Below the pieces are notes generated by a model. The model was not told the origin of the DNA. It searched no databases and worked only from the letters and a program-made list of their open reading frames with translations. Of a stretch of 64,000 nucleotides of DNA, positions 22,786 through 31,382 are shown piece by piece; the stretch's first letter is position 1, and each line of letters starts with the position of its first letter. Source of the stretch: Spirochaetae bacterium HGW-Spirochaetae-1 (GTDB lineage Bacteria; Spirochaetota; UBA4802; UBA5550); NCBI GenBank assembly GCA_002839375.1, contig PGXY01000011.1, positions 248,001 to 312,000 on the forward strand, given 5' to 3'. A program made the translations under genes and the position numbers.

Positions 22786-24120
22786 ATGAAAATGATTACA
22801 GTGGGAAGAAAAGGTACTATATTAATCATCCTCCTGATGGGAATTGCATCCATCATGCTGCTCTCAAACCGGATTGTTTCATTGAAGAATGAAGGATTCG
22901 CCCAGAACATGTCCAGGACCGATATTCGCAACCGCTACGAAAAGGACAGGGAAGGCATAATGCGGAGCCAGGAAGAGATGAAACAGCTCATGAAGGGTAT
23001 TGTCGCCGATATCAAGGAGCGGAATCTCAAGTTCCGCGTAGAGCTGAATGAACAGATGAAGTATCAGATCGCCCAAATAACGGGTGCCAAAGAACCCGAG
23101 GAAATAGAAAAGGATGCGTCGGTCCGGTGGGGATGGGGACAGCGGCAATGGAAACGCTATTTCGGTACTTATTACGATATCCTGGGAAGAAAAAAATCGG
23201 AAGATGAGAAGCAGGAACAGCTGGAAAGGCGCCGGAAGCTGGCCGAAAATGAGAAAAAGCTGGAAGAGCAAAGAAGACAATTGGAAGAGGAAAGGCGCCT
23301 GGCCGAGGATAAACAGAGGGAACAGGAAGAGGCCGCGAGGCTGGCAGAGGAAGAGAAGCGGCTCGCCCGGGAAAGGAAGCGTCTGGATGAAGAAAAAATG
23401 AAACTCAATGAAAAGAAGATAGAGACTGATATAGATAACGCGCCGTCGCCTTCGGCCGTGGCCTTTACCTGGCTCGGCAGGCAGAAAATGACCCCGGTGA
23501 AAAACCAGGGTACCTGCGGCAGCTGCTGGGCCTTTACTTCGGCAGCGGTTCTTGAGGCCAATTTTATGATCAGGAACGGCAAAGAACTGGACCTCTCGGA
23601 GCAGAACATTCTTGACTGCGCCGTCGATGAGAGGGGCAAGGACGCGGGAAGCTGTGGCGGCGGATGGTACGGCGGGGTGTTTCATTACTTTACACAGAAG
23701 AGCGCGGTTACGGAGACAACTACTCCCTACAAGGGGCGTGAAAGCGTGTGCCGTCAGCCCGTGAAGGAAAACTACCGCGTCGCCGCCTGGGGCTATATCA
23801 GGAAAGACGCCGGCATTCCCTCCGTGGATGAGATGAAGGATGCGCTGTGCAAATACGGCCCCGTTGCCGCCTGCGTGAAGGTGACGCCGGCGCTGCAGGC
23901 GTATAAAAGCGGCATCTTCGATGAGCATGCCGCGGTCAGCGGTCCCCGCGACATCAATCATGCCATAACGATCGTGGGATGGGACGATTCGAAGAAGTCG
24001 TGGCTCGTTAAGAATTCCTGGGGGCCCCGGTGGGGCGATAACGGATATTTCTGGATAGAATACGGATGCAATAATATCGGATACGGCGCGACCTGGCTCG
24101 TCGTTGTACGTGATCAGTAG
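22786..24120 (+). CDS. Papain-family (C1A) cysteine protease with signal anchor and coiled coil
   Basis: Exported or membrane-anchored papain-like protease of 444 residues. A hydrophobic signal-anchor helix (~10-28) is followed by a long charged coiled coil (~45-215) rich in Glu, Lys, Arg and Gln. The C-terminal ~225 residues are the peptidase. The oxyanion Gln and catalytic Cys247 lie in NQGTCGSCWAF, His392 in INHAITIVGW, and Asn410 in LVKNSWGPRWG. Disulfide-type cysteines (SCGGGW, SVCRQ) are also present. There is no recognisable inhibitory pro-domain; the coiled coil takes its place. ATG 22786 is 8 bases after AGAGG; the GTG at 22777 would overlap that site. The next gene, 26 bases on, encodes a chagasin-like inhibitor of exactly this protease class. 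The target is unknown. Confidence 0.92.
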   Translation: MKMITVGRKGTILIILLMGIASIMLLSNRIVSLKNEGFAQNMSRTDIRNRYEKDREGIMRSQEEMKQLMKGIVADIKERNLKFRVELNEQMKYQIAQITGAKEPEEIEKDASVRWGWGQRQWKRYFGTYYDILGRKKSEDEKQEQLERRRKLAENEKKLEEQRRQLEEERRLAEDKQREQEEAARLAEEEKRLARERKRLDEEKMKLNEKKIETDIDNAPSPSAVAFTWLGRQKMTPVKNQGTCGSCWAFTSAAVLEANFMIRNGKELDLSEQNILDCAVDERGKDAGSCGGGWYGGVFHYFTQKSAVTETTTPYKGRESVCRQPVKENYRVAAWGYIRKDAGIPSVDEMKDALCKYGPVAACVKVTPALQAYKSGIFDEHAAVSGPRDINHAITIVGWDDSKKSWLVKNSWGPRWGDNGYFWIEYGCNNIGYGATWLVVVRDQ

Positions 24121-24146
24121 GCATACGGAAAGGAGGCAATTGGCAT

Positions 24147-24545
24147 ATGACGGCAAAGGGAAAAAAAATGGTACTAGCGGGGATGCTGGTCGTGGCGGCG
24201 GGATTGTTTTCGTGTTCGCCCAGGGCCGCACTTATACTGACCGACGAGAGCAACGGCAAATCATTCAGGATCGAAAAAGGAAAGATTCTTGAAGTGAGAC
24301 TCAGCGCGCAGATGGGAACGGGATACAGCTGGAAGTGGAAAATGAACGATGAGTTCTTCACGGAAGAGAGGGAGCAGGATATTATAACCGCGGAAAAAAA
24401 CAAGACCGGGGATGTGGATATTCAGGTGTTCAGATTACGCCCTCTCGTTTCGGGAGAGACGGAACTGGAATTTATTCTTGACCGGGCCTGGGAGAAAGAC
24501 AAGGCTCCGCAGAAGGAATTCTCCGTCAGGGTAGTCATATATTAA
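24147..24545 (+). CDS. Chagasin-like (I42) cysteine protease inhibitor lipoprotein
   Basis: A 132-residue lipoprotein: signal peptide with lipobox LFSC and lipidation at Cys23. The mature part matches the chagasin/I42 family, beta-sandwich inhibitors of papain-like proteases. Their three inhibitory loops are seen here as GTGYSW at 57-62 (family NPTTGYxW), the middle LVSGETE turn at 100-106, and DRAWEK at 112-117 (family RPW; here Ala replaces Pro). It ends with the EFSVRVVIY strand. AAGGAGG lies 11 bases before the ATG. The gene is 26 bases downstream of a papain-family protease and surely co-transcribed with it. I infer that it restrains that protease in the envelope; host- or prey-protease inhibition is an alternative. 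Confidence 0.82.
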   Translation: MTAKGKKMVLAGMLVVAAGLFSCSPRAALILTDESNGKSFRIEKGKILEVRLSAQMGTGYSWKWKMNDEFFTEEREQDIITAEKNKTGDVDIQVFRLRPLVSGETELEFILDRAWEKDKAPQKEFSVRVVIY

Positions 24546-24610: not shown

Positions 24611-25240
24611 ATGGCATATCCTGAAGCTTCTAAAAACACGGAATTGAAGAATGTCCGGAATTTAAAAATAAAGCCCGTTTCCGTGGTGGTAATCGGTTCA
24701 TCCACGGGCGGTGTTCCGGTCTTAACACGCATATTGTCGGCGCTGAAAGAATTTTCCCCGCCTATAGTGATAGTTCAGCACATGCCCCGGGAGTACACGG
24801 GCCCCTTTGCCGAGAGGCTGAACAGGCTTTCCATAATATTCGTGGCCGAGGCCTCCAACGGAGACCGTCTCTACCGCGGACATGCCTTTGTGGCGCCGGG
24901 AGACTCCCATGTACTTCTGCGCAGGGACGGGCAGGGCTATTTTATCGAGGTCAATTCCGACGAGCCGGTGAACCGCTTCAGGCCATCGGTGGATGTTCTT
25001 TTTGATTCCGCGGCCCGTATTCCCGACAGGGACATCGTGGGAATCATTCTTACGGGCATGGGCAACGACGGGGCTGCCGGTCTGCTGAAAATGAGGGAAA
25101 AGGGCCAGGTCACCGTGGCCCAGGACGAGAATTCCTCAGCCGTTTTCGGTATGCCCCGTGAGGCCATCATGAGGGGCGCGGCGGCCCATGTCATGAGCGT
25201 TGATGAGATCACGGCCTTCATCAACGGCCTGGACGAATGA
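24611..25240 (+). CDS. CheB-type methylesterase domain without receiver
   Basis: A 209-residue protein consisting of the CheB catalytic domain only, which removes methyl groups (or deamidates) glutamate positions of chemoreceptors. The triad is present: Ser31 in VIGSSTGG, His in VQHMPREYT, and Asp in LTGMGNDGA. Standard CheB proteins are ~350 residues with an N-terminal receiver domain; this has none, so it is either constitutive or controlled by other contacts. It follows the protease-inhibitor pair by 65 bases, which include a short ATCCGC/GCGGAT hairpin, so it may or may not share their transcript. No cheR, cheA or cheW is in the window, but two chemoreceptors are. It is convergent with the alpha/beta hydrolase gene, 5 bases apart. 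Confidence 0.88.
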   Translation: MAYPEASKNTELKNVRNLKIKPVSVVVIGSSTGGVPVLTRILSALKEFSPPIVIVQHMPREYTGPFAERLNRLSIIFVAEASNGDRLYRGHAFVAPGDSHVLLRRDGQGYFIEVNSDEPVNRFRPSVDVLFDSAARIPDRDIVGIILTGMGNDGAAGLLKMREKGQVTVAQDENSSAVFGMPREAIMRGAAAHVMSVDEITAFINGLDE

Positions 25241-26053: not shown

Positions 26054-26584
26054 TCAGAATTCAATGCCGCTTCGCGCCTGTATCTTTTCCCTGTAATAAT
26101 GCTTAATTTCCTTCATTTCAGTCACGAGATCACAGAGTTCCATGAGATCCTCCGTGGCTCCCCGGCCGGTCAGAACCAGTTCCATGCCCGCCGGTTTGGC
26201 GCGCACAAGGCCGGCGATTTCCTCTCCGGTGACGAGCTTGAACTTTTGGGCCGTTACTATTTCGTCTAGGATCAATATGTCATATTCTCCGCCCGTGAGT
26301 GCTTTCCGTGCGCGTTCATATCCCCGGCGCGCCAGGTCGTAGTGTTCATGGAAGTTCGTTCCGTCGGGCATGCAGAACCTGTCGCTTCCGTACTGTTCGA
26401 TGGTAATGGCCGGCCCGAGCGTTTTTATCGAATGCAGTTCGGCATAATCCTGCCCCTTCATGAACTGGATCATGAGGGTCTTCAGGCCCGCACCTGCCGC
26501 GCGGAGGGCGAGTCCCAGGGCAGCCGTGGTCTTTCCCTTGCCGTCTCCCGTGTAGAGCTGTACATATCCCTGTCCAATGGCCAT
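26054..26584 (-). CDS. cobO: Cob(I)yrinic acid a,c-diamide adenosyltransferase
   Basis: CobA/CobO/BtuR-type ATP:corrinoid adenosyltransferase, which adds the adenosyl group to cob(I)alamin to make coenzyme B12. The P-loop GDGKGKTTAALG is at the N-terminus, followed by MIQFMKGQDYAE and the DILILDEIV strand. Its 176 residues fit the family. It starts 5 bases after the icmF stop codon. This links cofactor activation directly to a mutase that needs adenosylcobalamin. A PduO-type enzyme would look quite different. Confidence 0.94.
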   Translation of the reverse strand: MAIGQGYVQLYTGDGKGKTTAALGLALRAAGAGLKTLMIQFMKGQDYAELHSIKTLGPAITIEQYGSDRFCMPDGTNFHEHYDLARRGYERARKALTGGEYDILILDEIVTAQKFKLVTGEEIAGLVRAKPAGMELVLTGRGATEDLMELCDLVTEMKEIKHYYREKIQARSGIEF

Positions 26585-26589
26585 GGCGT

Positions 26590-29500
26590 TTACATGTTCC
26601 TCCGGTATTTTCCGCCGACGCTGTAGAGCAGTTCGCTTATCTGCCCCAGGCTGGCCACGCGCGCCGTGTTCATGAGCTCTTCGAATATATTCTCACCGCT
26701 CTCGGCGACGCTGCGCAGTTTTTCCAGGGCAACGTGGGCTTCGGCGGCATGGCGCCCGTGAAAGGTCTTCAGATTGTCGAGTTGTGACTGTTTTTCCTCA
26801 TAGCTTGCCCTGGCCAGCTGCACGTCCTGCCGGGATGATTCCTGCGAAGCGGCTTTGTCGTCCAGGTAAGTATTGACGCCGATGATAGGGTACTCGCCGG
26901 AGTGTTTTTGATGCTCGTAGACCAGGGATTCCTCCTGAATCTTGCCCCGCTGATAATGCGTTTCCATGGCTCCCAGGACACCGCCGCGCCTGCTGATTGC
27001 GTCGAATTCCTTCAGCACCGCCTCTTCCACCAGGTCCGTGAGTTCCCTGATGATGAAGCTGCCCTGAAGCATGTTCTGGTTTTTAAAGATTCCGTATTCC
27101 TTCATGATGATGAGCTGGATCGCCATGGCCCGGCGCACCGATTCCTCCGACGGTGTGGTGACCGCCTCGTCGTAGGAGTTGGTGTGGAGTGAGTTGCAAT
27201 TGTCATTCAGGGCCATGAGGGCCTGGAGCGTCGTCCGTATGTCGTTGAACTGCATTTCCTGGGCGTGGAGGGAACGGCCCGAGGTCTGGACATGGCATTT
27301 CAGGCGCTGACTCTGCTCATTCGCACCGTACACGTATTTCATGGCGATGGACCAGATACGCCGCGCGACGCGGATCAGCACATTGTATTCCGGGTCCATG
27401 CCGCTGGAAAAGAAGAAGGAGAGGTTCGGGGCAAAATCGTCGATATGCATGCCGCATCCCAGGTAGTACTCCACGTAGGTAAAAGCGTTGGAGAGGGTCA
27501 GGGCCAGCTGCGTTACGGGATTGGCCCCGGCCTCGGCTATGTGGTATCCGCTGATGCTCACGGAGTAGAAGTTCCGGATCTTCTTATCGATAAAAAACTT
27601 CTGGATGTCCCCCATCATTTTCAGGGCAAAACCCGTGGAAAAAATGCAGGAGTTCTGGCCCTGGTCCTCCTTGAGGATGTCGGCCTGGACCGTGCCGCGA
27701 ATGTTTTCAAAAACGAAGGTGCGTATGGCGTCCAGTTCCGCCGGTTCCGGTCCGCGTCCCTTTTCCGTCATGAACCGGTCGAGCTGCTGATCTATGGCCG
27801 TGTTGAAAAAGAAGGCCAGCATGATGGGGGCCGGGCCGTTGATGGTCATGGATACGCTGGTCATGGGCGAGCAGAGGTCGAAGCCCGCGTAGAGCTTTTT
27901 CATATCGTCGAGCGTACAGATGCTGACGCCGCTTTCACCTATCTTGCCGAAGATGTCCGGTTCCGTCGTCGGGTCCTGGCCGTAGAGCGTCAGTGAATCG
28001 AAGGCGGTGCTGAGGCGCTTGGCCTCGTCGTTCCGCGAAAGGTAATGGAAACGGCGGTTGGTTTTCTCAGGGGGGCCTTCACCGGCAAACTGGCGCTTCG
28101 GGTCCTCGCCCTCCCTGCGGAAGGGGAAGACGCCGGCGGTGTAGGGGAAATACCCCGGGAGATTTTCTTCTCGCATCCACCGCACCGTATCGGCCATGCT
28201 TTCAAAGCGCGGCAGTGCGATGCGCGGGATTTTCAGCCCCGAGAGGGAGAGGCTGAAGAGGTGCGTGATATTCTCGCGGCCCCTGATTTTCACGGCCAGT
28301 TTTTCCTGTTCATAGGCTTCCTTTATTTCGTTCCAGCCGTCCATGAGGTGTTTCACCTCAGGGTCAAGGGTGGTCTCGATTTCACGGACAAGTTCAGGGA
28401 GCCCCTGGAGGCGGGCATCGTCGAGGAGTATTTTCGCCGATTCCAGTTTTCGTATGACCGCTGTTTCGGCGCCTGTTTTTTTGTGATAGTTCAGCACGGC
28501 CCGGGAAATAATACTCAGGTAATGTTCCCGCTCGGCAGGTATCACCGACAGGCTTTCGGGATGTTCCCGGGAAAAACCCGTTTTAGGCGGAACGGGCCAG
28601 TCGATGAGACCGCGTTCTTTCAGCATGTTGAAGCAGAGGCTGAAGAAAAGAGTCGTGCCCGGGTCCGAGAAATTGCTGGCCACGGTACCTATAATGGGGA
28701 GGTCTTCATCGGCTCCCTGGAAGACCGAGCGGTTCCTCCGGTATTGCTTGCGCACATCGCGCAGGGCGTCGGGGGAGTTCTTGTGGTCGAACTTGTTTAT
28801 GACGATGATGTCGGCGTAGTCCAGCATGTCGATCTTTTCCAGCTGCGACGGGGCGCCGAATTCCGAGGTCATGACATAGACCGACATGTCGCAGACCTGT
28901 GTGATCCAGGTGTCGCCCTGGCCGATGCCAGGGGTCTCTATGACGATGAGGTCGAAGCGCGCAGCCCTGAGCACGGCAATGAAGTCCCGTATGGTGTCCA
29001 GCATATCCTGGCCCGAATCCCTGGTGGCCATGGACCGCATGAAGACCCGTTCAGGATCGAGAAAGTTCATGCGTATGCGGTCCCCTAAAAGTGCGCCGCC
29101 GGTTTTTTTCCGTGTGGGGTCGACGGCAAGGACGGCCAGGCTTTTGCCGGGATACTGAGCGGCGAAGCGGCGGATGAATTCGTCCTCCAGGGAGCTTTTT
29201 CCCGACCCCCCGGTACCGGTGATGCCCAGGACCGGTGTATTCGAGGACAGGGCAGACAGTTCGCCGCGGAGAGCGGGAAAAGCGGCGCTGCTCACGCCCA
29301 GGTCCTTCTCGGCCATGGAAAGGAGTTCGCTCACGACGAGCCCGTCGCGCGAAGCGAGCCGCTCCTTCCAGTCCCGGGGCAGGGGAGGCGAGGCAAAGGC
29401 CGCGGTGCGGGAAATCATGTCGTCGATCATGCCCGCGAGGCCCAGGTGATGGCCGTCCTCGGGCGAGTAGATATGCTCGATGCCGTATTCATGGAGCTCA

Positions 29501-29835
29501 TGGATCTCTTCCGGAACTATCACGCCCCCGCCTCCGCCGAAAATCCGTATGTGGTCCACGCCGTTTTGCACAAGAAGGTCTTTTATGTATTTAAAGAATT
29601 CCATGTGGCCGCCCTGGTAGGAACTGGCCGCGATGGCATGGGCCCCTTCCTGTATGGCCGTATGGACAATCTCCCGGGCTGAACGGTTGTGGCCCAGGTG
29701 AATCACCTCGGCCCCGGCCTGCTGCAGGAGCCTGCGTATGATATTGATGGACGCGTCGTGACCGTCGAAGAGGGTCGTGGCCGTGACAAACCTGATTTTA
29801 TCCTTTATCGGAGCGTTTTTATCAAGGGAATTCAT
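26590..29835 (-). CDS. icmF: Fused isobutyryl-CoA mutase
   Basis: Fused acyl-CoA mutase that interconverts isobutyryl-CoA and butyryl-CoA (some relatives act on pivalyl- or isovaleryl-CoA) using adenosylcobalamin. Domain order is that of IcmF: an N-terminal B12-binding domain (FDGHDASINIIRRLL, cobalt-ligating His; later SYQGGHMEFFKY), a MeaB-like GTPase chaperone with P-loop GTGGSGKSS (Lys213), a linker, and the large mutase subunit (FPYTAGVFPF, SVSMTINGPAP, NSLHTNSYDEA). Its 1081 residues are normal for the fusion. A near-consensus promoter lies just upstream, and TGAGG precedes the ATG. The two downstream genes, cobO and an alpha/beta hydrolase, are tightly spaced. Role: branched or straight short-chain acyl-CoA metabolism. 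Confidence 0.95.
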   Translation of the reverse strand: MNSLDKNAPIKDKIRFVTATTLFDGHDASINIIRRLLQQAGAEVIHLGHNRSAREIVHTAIQEGAHAIAASSYQGGHMEFFKYIKDLLVQNGVDHIRIFGGGGGVIVPEEIHELHEYGIEHIYSPEDGHHLGLAGMIDDMISRTAAFASPPLPRDWKERLASRDGLVVSELLSMAEKDLGVSSAAFPALRGELSALSSNTPVLGITGTGGSGKSSLEDEFIRRFAAQYPGKSLAVLAVDPTRKKTGGALLGDRIRMNFLDPERVFMRSMATRDSGQDMLDTIRDFIAVLRAARFDLIVIETPGIGQGDTWITQVCDMSVYVMTSEFGAPSQLEKIDMLDYADIIVINKFDHKNSPDALRDVRKQYRRNRSVFQGADEDLPIIGTVASNFSDPGTTLFFSLCFNMLKERGLIDWPVPPKTGFSREHPESLSVIPAEREHYLSIISRAVLNYHKKTGAETAVIRKLESAKILLDDARLQGLPELVREIETTLDPEVKHLMDGWNEIKEAYEQEKLAVKIRGRENITHLFSLSLSGLKIPRIALPRFESMADTVRWMREENLPGYFPYTAGVFPFRREGEDPKRQFAGEGPPEKTNRRFHYLSRNDEAKRLSTAFDSLTLYGQDPTTEPDIFGKIGESGVSICTLDDMKKLYAGFDLCSPMTSVSMTINGPAPIMLAFFFNTAIDQQLDRFMTEKGRGPEPAELDAIRTFVFENIRGTVQADILKEDQGQNSCIFSTGFALKMMGDIQKFFIDKKIRNFYSVSISGYHIAEAGANPVTQLALTLSNAFTYVEYYLGCGMHIDDFAPNLSFFFSSGMDPEYNVLIRVARRIWSIAMKYVYGANEQSQRLKCHVQTSGRSLHAQEMQFNDIRTTLQALMALNDNCNSLHTNSYDEAVTTPSEESVRRAMAIQLIIMKEYGIFKNQNMLQGSFIIRELTDLVEEAVLKEFDAISRRGGVLGAMETHYQRGKIQEESLVYEHQKHSGEYPIIGVNTYLDDKAASQESSRQDVQLARASYEEKQSQLDNLKTFHGRHAAEAHVALEKLRSVAESGENIFEELMNTARVASLGQISELLYSVGGKYRRNM

Positions 29836-30642: not shown

Positions 30643-30675
30643 TCCAGTATAGACAAAAGGTGGGAAGTGATATTC

Positions 30676-31002
30676 ATGAATAAAGCAATAATAGACGAGG
30701 CCGCAGCCGTCCTGAAATCAGTTCTGACCGATGAGTTCGGTGATGGCATTGAACTTACCATGTTCGGGTCAGCCGTAAGGGGCACCTATGACAGGGAATC
30801 TGATATTGATATTCTGGTTCTTCTTCCTTTTGAACCTACCACAAATATTGAGGAGACTATTTTCGGAATCGCTTTCGATATTGAACTGAAGTATAATATA
30901 GTTTTCGGATTGATCGTATATTCAGGGCGATTCTGGAACTCAGAACTGGCAGCGACAATGCCTTTACACAGGAACATAGAAAGAGAGGGTGCCCGGATTT
31001 GA
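30676..31002 (+). CDS. MNT-type minimal nucleotidyltransferase (antitoxin-like)
   Basis: A 108-residue minimal nucleotidyltransferase. The catalytic motif is complete: GSAVRG, then the SDIDILV metal-binding aspartates (GS...G...SDxD). A further acidic residue lies in FDIELKY. MNT proteins pair with HEPN proteins; in characterised type VII modules the MNT partner inactivates the HEPN RNase by adding AMP groups. Here the stop codon overlaps the TTG start of a HEPN gene by 4 bases, which supports such a pair. ATG 30676 is chosen; an in-frame GTG at 30667 is possible and lies closer to the AAGGTGGGAAG site. Confidence 0.88.
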   Translation: MNKAIIDEAAAVLKSVLTDEFGDGIELTMFGSAVRGTYDRESDIDILVLLPFEPTTNIEETIFGIAFDIELKYNIVFGLIVYSGRFWNSELAATMPLHRNIEREGARI

Positions 31003-31382
31003 CTCCTCACAATGAGCTTATTCGCTATCGTAGATTAAAAGCCGGGGAAACCCTTCAGGACGCGGTGATCCTTGTTGAAGCGGGAAGATTACATTCGGCG
31101 GTAAACAGAATTTATTACGCACTATTTTATGAAGTTTCCGCGCTGCTTCTGACGAAAGATTTAAGTTCATCGAGACATAGCGGAATTAAGGCGTTGTTCA
31201 ATGAACACTTTGTTAAACTGGGCGTTGTTTCAACACATACCGGACGTTTTTTCTCCACCATGTTTGAATTCCGGCAGAAAGGCGATTACAGTGATTTCGT
31301 CACCTTTGAAAAAGATAAGGTATCGGAATGGCTTGTCATGGCCGGGGAATCAATTAAAGAGATCGAAGGCATTTTTAAATAA
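30999..31382 (+). CDS. HEPN-domain protein (toxin-like partner of MNT)
   Basis: A 127-residue all-helical HEPN protein. It shows the family's central helix AVNRIYYALFYEVSALLL, then SSRHSGIKALFNEHFVK and a final RQKGDYSDFV segment. In many HEPN RNases an R-x(4-6)-H motif is catalytic. On this central helix the spacing Arg-x6 ends in Tyr, not His, so RNase activity is doubtful unless another Arg/His pair serves. It starts at TTG inside the MNT stop codon, implying translational coupling. Probable toxin-antitoxin or stress module; it is bracketed by a 21-bp direct repeat. Confidence 0.85.
   Translation: MTPHNELIRYRRLKAGETLQDAVILVEAGRLHSAVNRIYYALFYEVSALLLTKDLSSSRHSGIKALFNEHFVKLGVVSTHTGRFFSTMFEFRQKGDYSDFVTFEKDKVSEWLVMAGESIKEIEGIFK

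Follow-up and report, generated by a model that had tools for sequence, protein, structure and literature searches.

Inhibitors of the chagasin/ICP family (MEROPS I42) include T. cruzi chagasin, Entamoeba EhICP2, P. aeruginosa ICP and P. syringae Cip1. Chagasins inhibit C1A enzymes with nanomolar to picomolar potency, and for the bacterial inhibitor Cip1 a Ki of 3.98 nM was reported against papain (PMC5014320, PMC7863939). One study describes bacterial chagasins as having no elucidated role (PMC5014320). Pseudomonas chagasins are exported, and the best-studied bacterial representatives target host enzymes.

Operons pairing a cysteine protease with its inhibitor are known from other protease families. 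In the SpeB/Spi, staphopain/staphostatin and Bacteroides Bfp/Bfi systems the protease gene adjoins the inhibitor gene, the enzymes belonging to families C10 and C47 and the inhibitors having folds other than that of chagasin. Some Bfi inhibitors are predicted lipoproteins, and self-protection has been proposed for Spi, the staphostatins and Bfi (PMC2873492). The locus described here shares this gene arrangement, whereas its components are a C1A protease and an I42 inhibitor.

A C1A protease gene and a chagasin gene lie side by side

The pair was found in a 64,000-nucleotide stretch (positions 248,001-312,000) of contig PGXY01000011.1 of Spirochaetae bacterium HGW-Spirochaetae-1, from here on referred to as the window. 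It comprises the following elements:

22786..24120, + strand: P0001, C1A (papain-family) cysteine protease, 444 aa (ORF, ATG 22786 to stop 24120)
24130..24136, + strand: Shine-Dalgarno-like AAGGAGG serving the inhibitor gene (sequence)
24147..24545, + strand: P0002, chagasin-family (I42) inhibitor lipoprotein, 132 aa (ORF, ATG 24147 to stop 24545)

The protease gene is located upstream of the inhibitor gene on the same strand, and the ribosome-binding site lies within the 26 bases that separate them, an arrangement suggesting that both genes are co-transcribed. Co-transcription has been demonstrated for operons of the Spi/SpeB kind and is predicted for P0001/P0002. A domain search of the 5.2 Mb genome identified a single I42 domain and two C1 domains. 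The second C1 protein (L003, G000:C10:23670-24278, about 520 aa) has no chagasin alongside and carries a long N-terminal region without a Pfam match; unpaired paralogues of 700-850 aa resembling it occur in relatives.

A stand-alone CheB methylesterase gene (24611-25240, + strand) follows 65 bases 3' of the chagasin gene on the same strand and is not kept next to the pair in relatives. A larger operon was rejected, as none of the flanking genes is conserved with the pair. Elsewhere in the window, adjoining nucleotidyltransferase (PF01909) and HEPN (PF05168) genes (30667-31382, + strand) have the usual composition of an MNT/HEPN toxin-antitoxin system, and a cobalamin adenosyltransferase-like gene adjoins a fused mutase-type (IcmF-like) gene (26054-29835, - strand; assigned by eye). 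A PADLOC search for anti-phage defence gave no match.

The pair is conserved in relatives

The same family and order are represented by 46 genomes. Both genes are present in 28 of them, and in all 28 they are adjacent, on the same strand and with the protease first. Neither gene is found in 15 genomes, leaving three exceptions (co-occurrence p 4e-9): the protease occurs without a chagasin in G004 (98% complete) and in G043, whose contig breaks off at this gene, while G038 (66% complete) holds a chagasin fragment without the protease. Given the situation in G004, the inhibitor is not strictly required. Within the order, protease and chagasin genes are gained and lost together, and the pair persists while its flanking genes vary between genera. 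The initial annotation had proposed the pairing of protease and inhibitor genes, which this conserved neighborhood bears out. Patristic distances of the mature protease and the chagasin are correlated (Mantel r 0.69, permutation p 2e-4, 27 pairs), which is as expected of co-inheritance, in itself no evidence of contact, and in part follows the species phylogeny.

A broader set of 98 relatives contains 37 chagasin places, of which 31 have a same-strand C1A domain within 290 bp. Since each genome encodes only one to three C1 domains, chance adjacency is expected almost never. Conserved adjacency, as in operons of the Spi/SpeB kind, was thus found both in the order (28/28) and among these relatives (31/37). 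The protease comes first at 29 of the paired places; at the other two (G054 and G066) the chagasin comes first, and these genomes represent distant families with a different C1 subfamily. The gene order is reversed in L089 (4762-7435) and L090 (4158-6904), which represent two distant families within the phylum: the chagasin gene is located ahead of a different, fn3-containing C1 protease, apparently an independent pairing.

P0001 is a C1A protease with a predicted pro-region

Alignments and modeling divide P0001 as follows:

22786..22905, + strand: N-terminal hydrophobic segment, aa 1-40 (..EGFAQ) (alignment with relatives)
22924..23100, + strand: pro-region, aa 47-105, motif IKERNLKFRVELNEQMKYQIAQITG (alignment, HMM, AF2 model, superposition)
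23104..23406, + strand: charged helical linker, aa 107-207 (coiled coil) (alignment, AF2 model)
23452..24114, + strand: mature C1A catalytic domain, aa 223-443 (VIA alignment to mature cathepsins)
23524..23526, + strand: catalytic Cys247 codon (invariant in alignment)
23959..23961, + strand: catalytic His392 codon (invariant in alignment)
24013..24015, + strand: catalytic Asn410 codon (invariant in alignment)

The C1A family profile covers the catalytic domain (PF00112, aa 232-429, E 3.9e-51), and the closest PDB sequence is pro-cathepsin H (E 1.2e-39). The oxyanion Gln241 and the catalytic residues Cys247, His392 and Asn410 are all in place and do not vary among 27 relatives, confirming the initial reading of P0001 as a C1A papain-family protease with an intact active site; proteolytic activity is predicted. 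The protein had also been called membrane-anchored, which is doubtful: the N-termini of relatives resemble signal peptides ending in ..AQ, and P0001 has ..EGFAQ.. at aa 36-40. Aa 1-40 are probably a signal peptide and the protease would be secreted.

A conserved block with invariant residues K92, I98 and G100 (27 relatives) is located upstream of the coiled coil, and an HMM built from this region (consensus EEVKKDLEALRAQIKAENWTFTVGYNEAMKYPLEQLTGLKEPEN) matches 59 of 64 prokaryotic C1A proteins that lack a fused chagasin. The template-free AF2 model of whole P0001 (pLDDT 89.2, pTM 0.82) is of high confidence at aa 60-120 (pLDDT 96-98) and superposes in VIA alignment on procathepsins K, L, S, H and B, with proenzymes ranking first. 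Procathepsin K aligns over 275 residues starting at aa 47 (Z 32.2) and rat procathepsin B over 257 residues starting at aa 68, as compared with 212 residues for the best mature enzyme, cathepsin H (Z 28.4). P0001 therefore shares with cathepsins B, H, K and L both the catalytic residues and, in the model, the propeptide. It differs from them in the roughly 100 aa of charged helical linker ahead of the catalytic domain and in a pro-motif for which the listed Pfam and PDB sequence matches gave no counterpart. Propeptide families of the I29 and cathepsin B types were absent among the Pfam matches listed, up to 25 families, for 27 full-length relatives and 53 pro-region segments, in a search whose HMMER filters may miss weak matches, and the pro-region profile retrieved no relevant chain from the PDB sequences. 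The motif resembles that of the cathepsin B propeptide, which we take to read TW.AG.N...L..L.G. Homology to this propeptide was not retained at the sequence level, given the missing Pfam and PDB matches, and the likeness is one of fold.

The linker, modeled as helices at aa 107-174 and 185-207, measures 58-180 aa among relatives (motif end to catalytic region), with 29-74% E/K/R/D/Q and a variable proline content, one relative being Pro-rich. The suggestion that a coiled coil stands in for the pro-domain was rejected: linker length and composition vary, the conserved motif lies ahead of it, and the model fits proenzymes better than mature enzymes. According to the model, P0001 would be an ordinary zymogen carrying an inserted linker.

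P0002 is a chagasin-family lipoprotein

The features of P0002 are:

24147..24215, + strand: lipoprotein signal peptide and lipobox LFSC with Cys23 (Cys invariant in 26 relatives)
24309..24326, + strand: inhibitory loop L2, QMGTGY (chagasin NPTTGF), aa 55-60 (alignment)
24483..24491, + strand: inhibitory loop L6, RAW (chagasin RPW), aa 113-115 (sequence, alignment)

P0002 matches PF09394 with 54.2 bits, compared with a curated cut-off of 27.2 (E 1.8e-14), and a phmmer search of PDB sequences returned EhICP2 as the best hit (4.5e-9) as well as P. aeruginosa ICP (2.3e-5). Its AF2 model (pLDDT 83.5) aligns with EhICP2 (Z 16.7, 108 residues) and T. cruzi chagasin (Z 15.0, 103 residues), the first unrelated fold appearing at about Z 8, which points to the chagasin Ig-like fold. 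The invariance of the lipobox cysteine marks a lipoprotein family. The initial annotation of a lipoprotein with chagasin loops GTGY and RAW 26 bases downstream of the protease gene is thus upheld.

P0002 shares profile and fold, three loop positions, the invariant L2 Thr-Gly and the L6 aromatic residue with the chagasin/ICP family and, like Pseudomonas chagasins, is predicted to be exported. It differs from characterized members in being a lipoprotein encoded beside its likely target and in its L2 loop, QMGTGY instead of NPTTGF/Y. In L2, T58, G59 and Y60 keep the positions of chagasin T32, G33 and F34 with N29, P30 and T31 altered; T58 and G59 are invariant and Q55 is nearly invariant among relatives. 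L6 retains Arg and Trp with Pro altered. The L2 change counts against P0002 acting as a brake on the protease, though exchanges of T31 in chagasin leave inhibition of cathepsin L intact. Specifically, T31A, T31S, T31V and T31A/T32A did not weaken cathepsin L inhibition, T31A and T31A/T32A weakened inhibition of cruzipain, and deletion of T31-T32 weakened inhibition of both enzymes (PMC2607524). Gly at loop position 31 is strongly associated with C1A adjacency (25/49 versus 2/88; outside the home clade 8/18). It was not retained as a mark of co-adaptation, as independent-pairs testing on the tree yielded 4 pairs (median p 1), and it may be a lineage mark only.

The chagasin as a putative brake on the neighboring protease

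We hypothesize that P0001 and P0002 form a protease-inhibitor operon in which an exported zymogen is combined with a lipoprotein brake that shields the producer, and we consider this reading probable. P0001 would be exported as a zymogen whose pro-region covers the active-site cleft and is connected to the catalytic domain by the long, variable helical linker. P0002 would be exported as a lipoprotein and retained on the producer's own membrane, where its three loops could block the active site of prematurely matured protease and of protease remaining in the envelope, thereby confining activity to enzyme released outside the cell. Co-transcription, compartment, binding, inhibition of P0001 by P0002 and self-protection as its purpose are the parts of this proposal that we infer; by analogy with operons of the Spi/SpeB kind, P0002 may be specific for the neighboring protease. 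As the pro-domain is already a brake, the chagasin may be redundant or directed elsewhere. The initial description of a self-contained regulated proteolysis system goes further than the evidence supports.

The main alternative is that the lipoprotein faces outward and, like Pseudomonas Cip1, blocks C1A proteases of predators, hosts or neighbors, gene adjacency then reflecting shared regulation of an attack-and-shield set. There is precedent for this, as C1A proteases of plant immunity are inhibited by Cip1 and a chagasin is present while a C1A gene is missing in most Pseudomonas genomes (PMC5014320). The top-scoring chagasins sampled in other phyla likewise mostly stand alone: a C1 domain was found within 1.5 kb of the best-scoring I42 loci in 3/30 cases in Chloroflexota, 5/15 in Cyanobacteriota, 1/14 in Pseudomonadota, 1/16 in Planctomycetota and 0/30 in archaea, compared with 26/30 in the spirochaete relatives, in samples that are biased to canonical high-scoring chagasins and each include their own seed genome. 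In the order, the chagasin nevertheless adjoins one particular protease subfamily almost without exception and is lost together with it, which favors the neighbor as the target, as does a clade of protease-linked chagasins. In a tree of 167 chagasin domains, based on few columns with the loop columns excluded, P0002 falls into a 41-row subfamily (SH-aLRT 95) in which 40 rows adjoin C1A genes, many of the non-Spirochaetota rows having been collected via C1A. This subfamily spans Spirochaetota, Cyanobacteriota, Acidobacteriota, Chloroflexota and Planctomycetota, and its sole solitary row (L257) lies near a contig start, where an upstream neighbor may be missing. Overall, an outward-facing inhibitor appears unlikely.

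Tandem chagasins were also observed. A Microcoleus protein (L124:2010-3140) contains three tandem chagasin domains and is encoded directly upstream of a C1A gene. Genomes G778, G768 and G788, from the group of G102 (the phylum of the Methanosarcina locus), encode 7-10 chagasin domains per genome, frequently as tandem copies; at the loci checked in this group, no C1 gene is nearby.

Fused chagasin-C1A proteins

Of the 80 C1A loci collected by similarity to P0001, many from other phyla have a chagasin beside the protease or fused to it. Single polypeptides that combine the two domains of the window pair occur in Chloroflexota, Desulfobacterota and other groups (for example L162, L168 and L169). 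An N-terminal chagasin followed by a C1A domain is found in L162, L168, L130, L132, L133, L137, L139, L149, L151, L156, L159, L165, L167, L171, L176 and L179; Pfam confirmed the fusion for L162 and L169. Across 84 proteins, the HMM detected the pro-motif in 0 of 19 with an N-terminally fused chagasin versus 59 of 64 unfused ones (p 2.4e-13), although most N-terminal fusions are from Chloroflexota, so that independent events are far fewer than 19. Desulfobacterota-like and gammaproteobacterial cases (L139, L156, L165, L151) lie outside this phylum. The absence of the pro-motif suggests that a chagasin domain is able to occupy the propeptide's place. In contrast, the window pair consists of two genes and keeps the pro-motif. 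The only C-terminal fusion, Singulisphaera L169:3066-4619, contains pro-motif, C1A domain and C-terminal chagasin, and its gene adjoins a second C1A gene.

These fusions could also be taken to mean that the chagasin, instead of restraining the protease, chiefly helps it to fold or to be sorted and thus acts as a propeptide in trans, because N-terminally fused chagasins sit in the propeptide position of proteins without a pro-motif. We consider this very improbable for the window pair, since P0001 retains its own pro-region, P0002 keeps the inhibitory T58, G59 and L6 aromatic residue, and G004 encodes the protease without a chagasin. Least credible of all is that the genes are mere neighbors whose products do not interact physically, given that the pair is kept as flanking genes change, that fusion and adjacency recur in other phyla and that inhibition of C1A enzymes by I42 proteins is established.

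More broadly, and only tentatively, chagasin may be a module that is genetically linked to prokaryotic C1A proteases, restrains them and can serve in place of a propeptide. It would back up the pro-region as a separate lipoprotein in the window and replace the propeptide when fused N-terminally, and solitary bacterial chagasins would be related to a module that was at first linked to a protease.

Significance

Both halves of the pair, the inhibitory chemistry and protease-inhibitor operons of other families were already known. Bacterial C1A-I42 operons or fusions were not found in the searchable, openly accessible literature. The abstract of Rigden 2002 reportedly notes a correlation between the occurrence of chagasins and that of papain-like proteases, and the pairing may already have been noticed there. 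The analysis also revealed a pro-region motif matched by none of the Pfam families listed and an inhibitor domain that seems to substitute for a propeptide. The best-studied bacterial chagasins act on host enzymes, whereas an order that inherits a chagasin and one C1A protease as a unit offers a natural cognate pair, making the hypothesis of an endogenous target directly testable.
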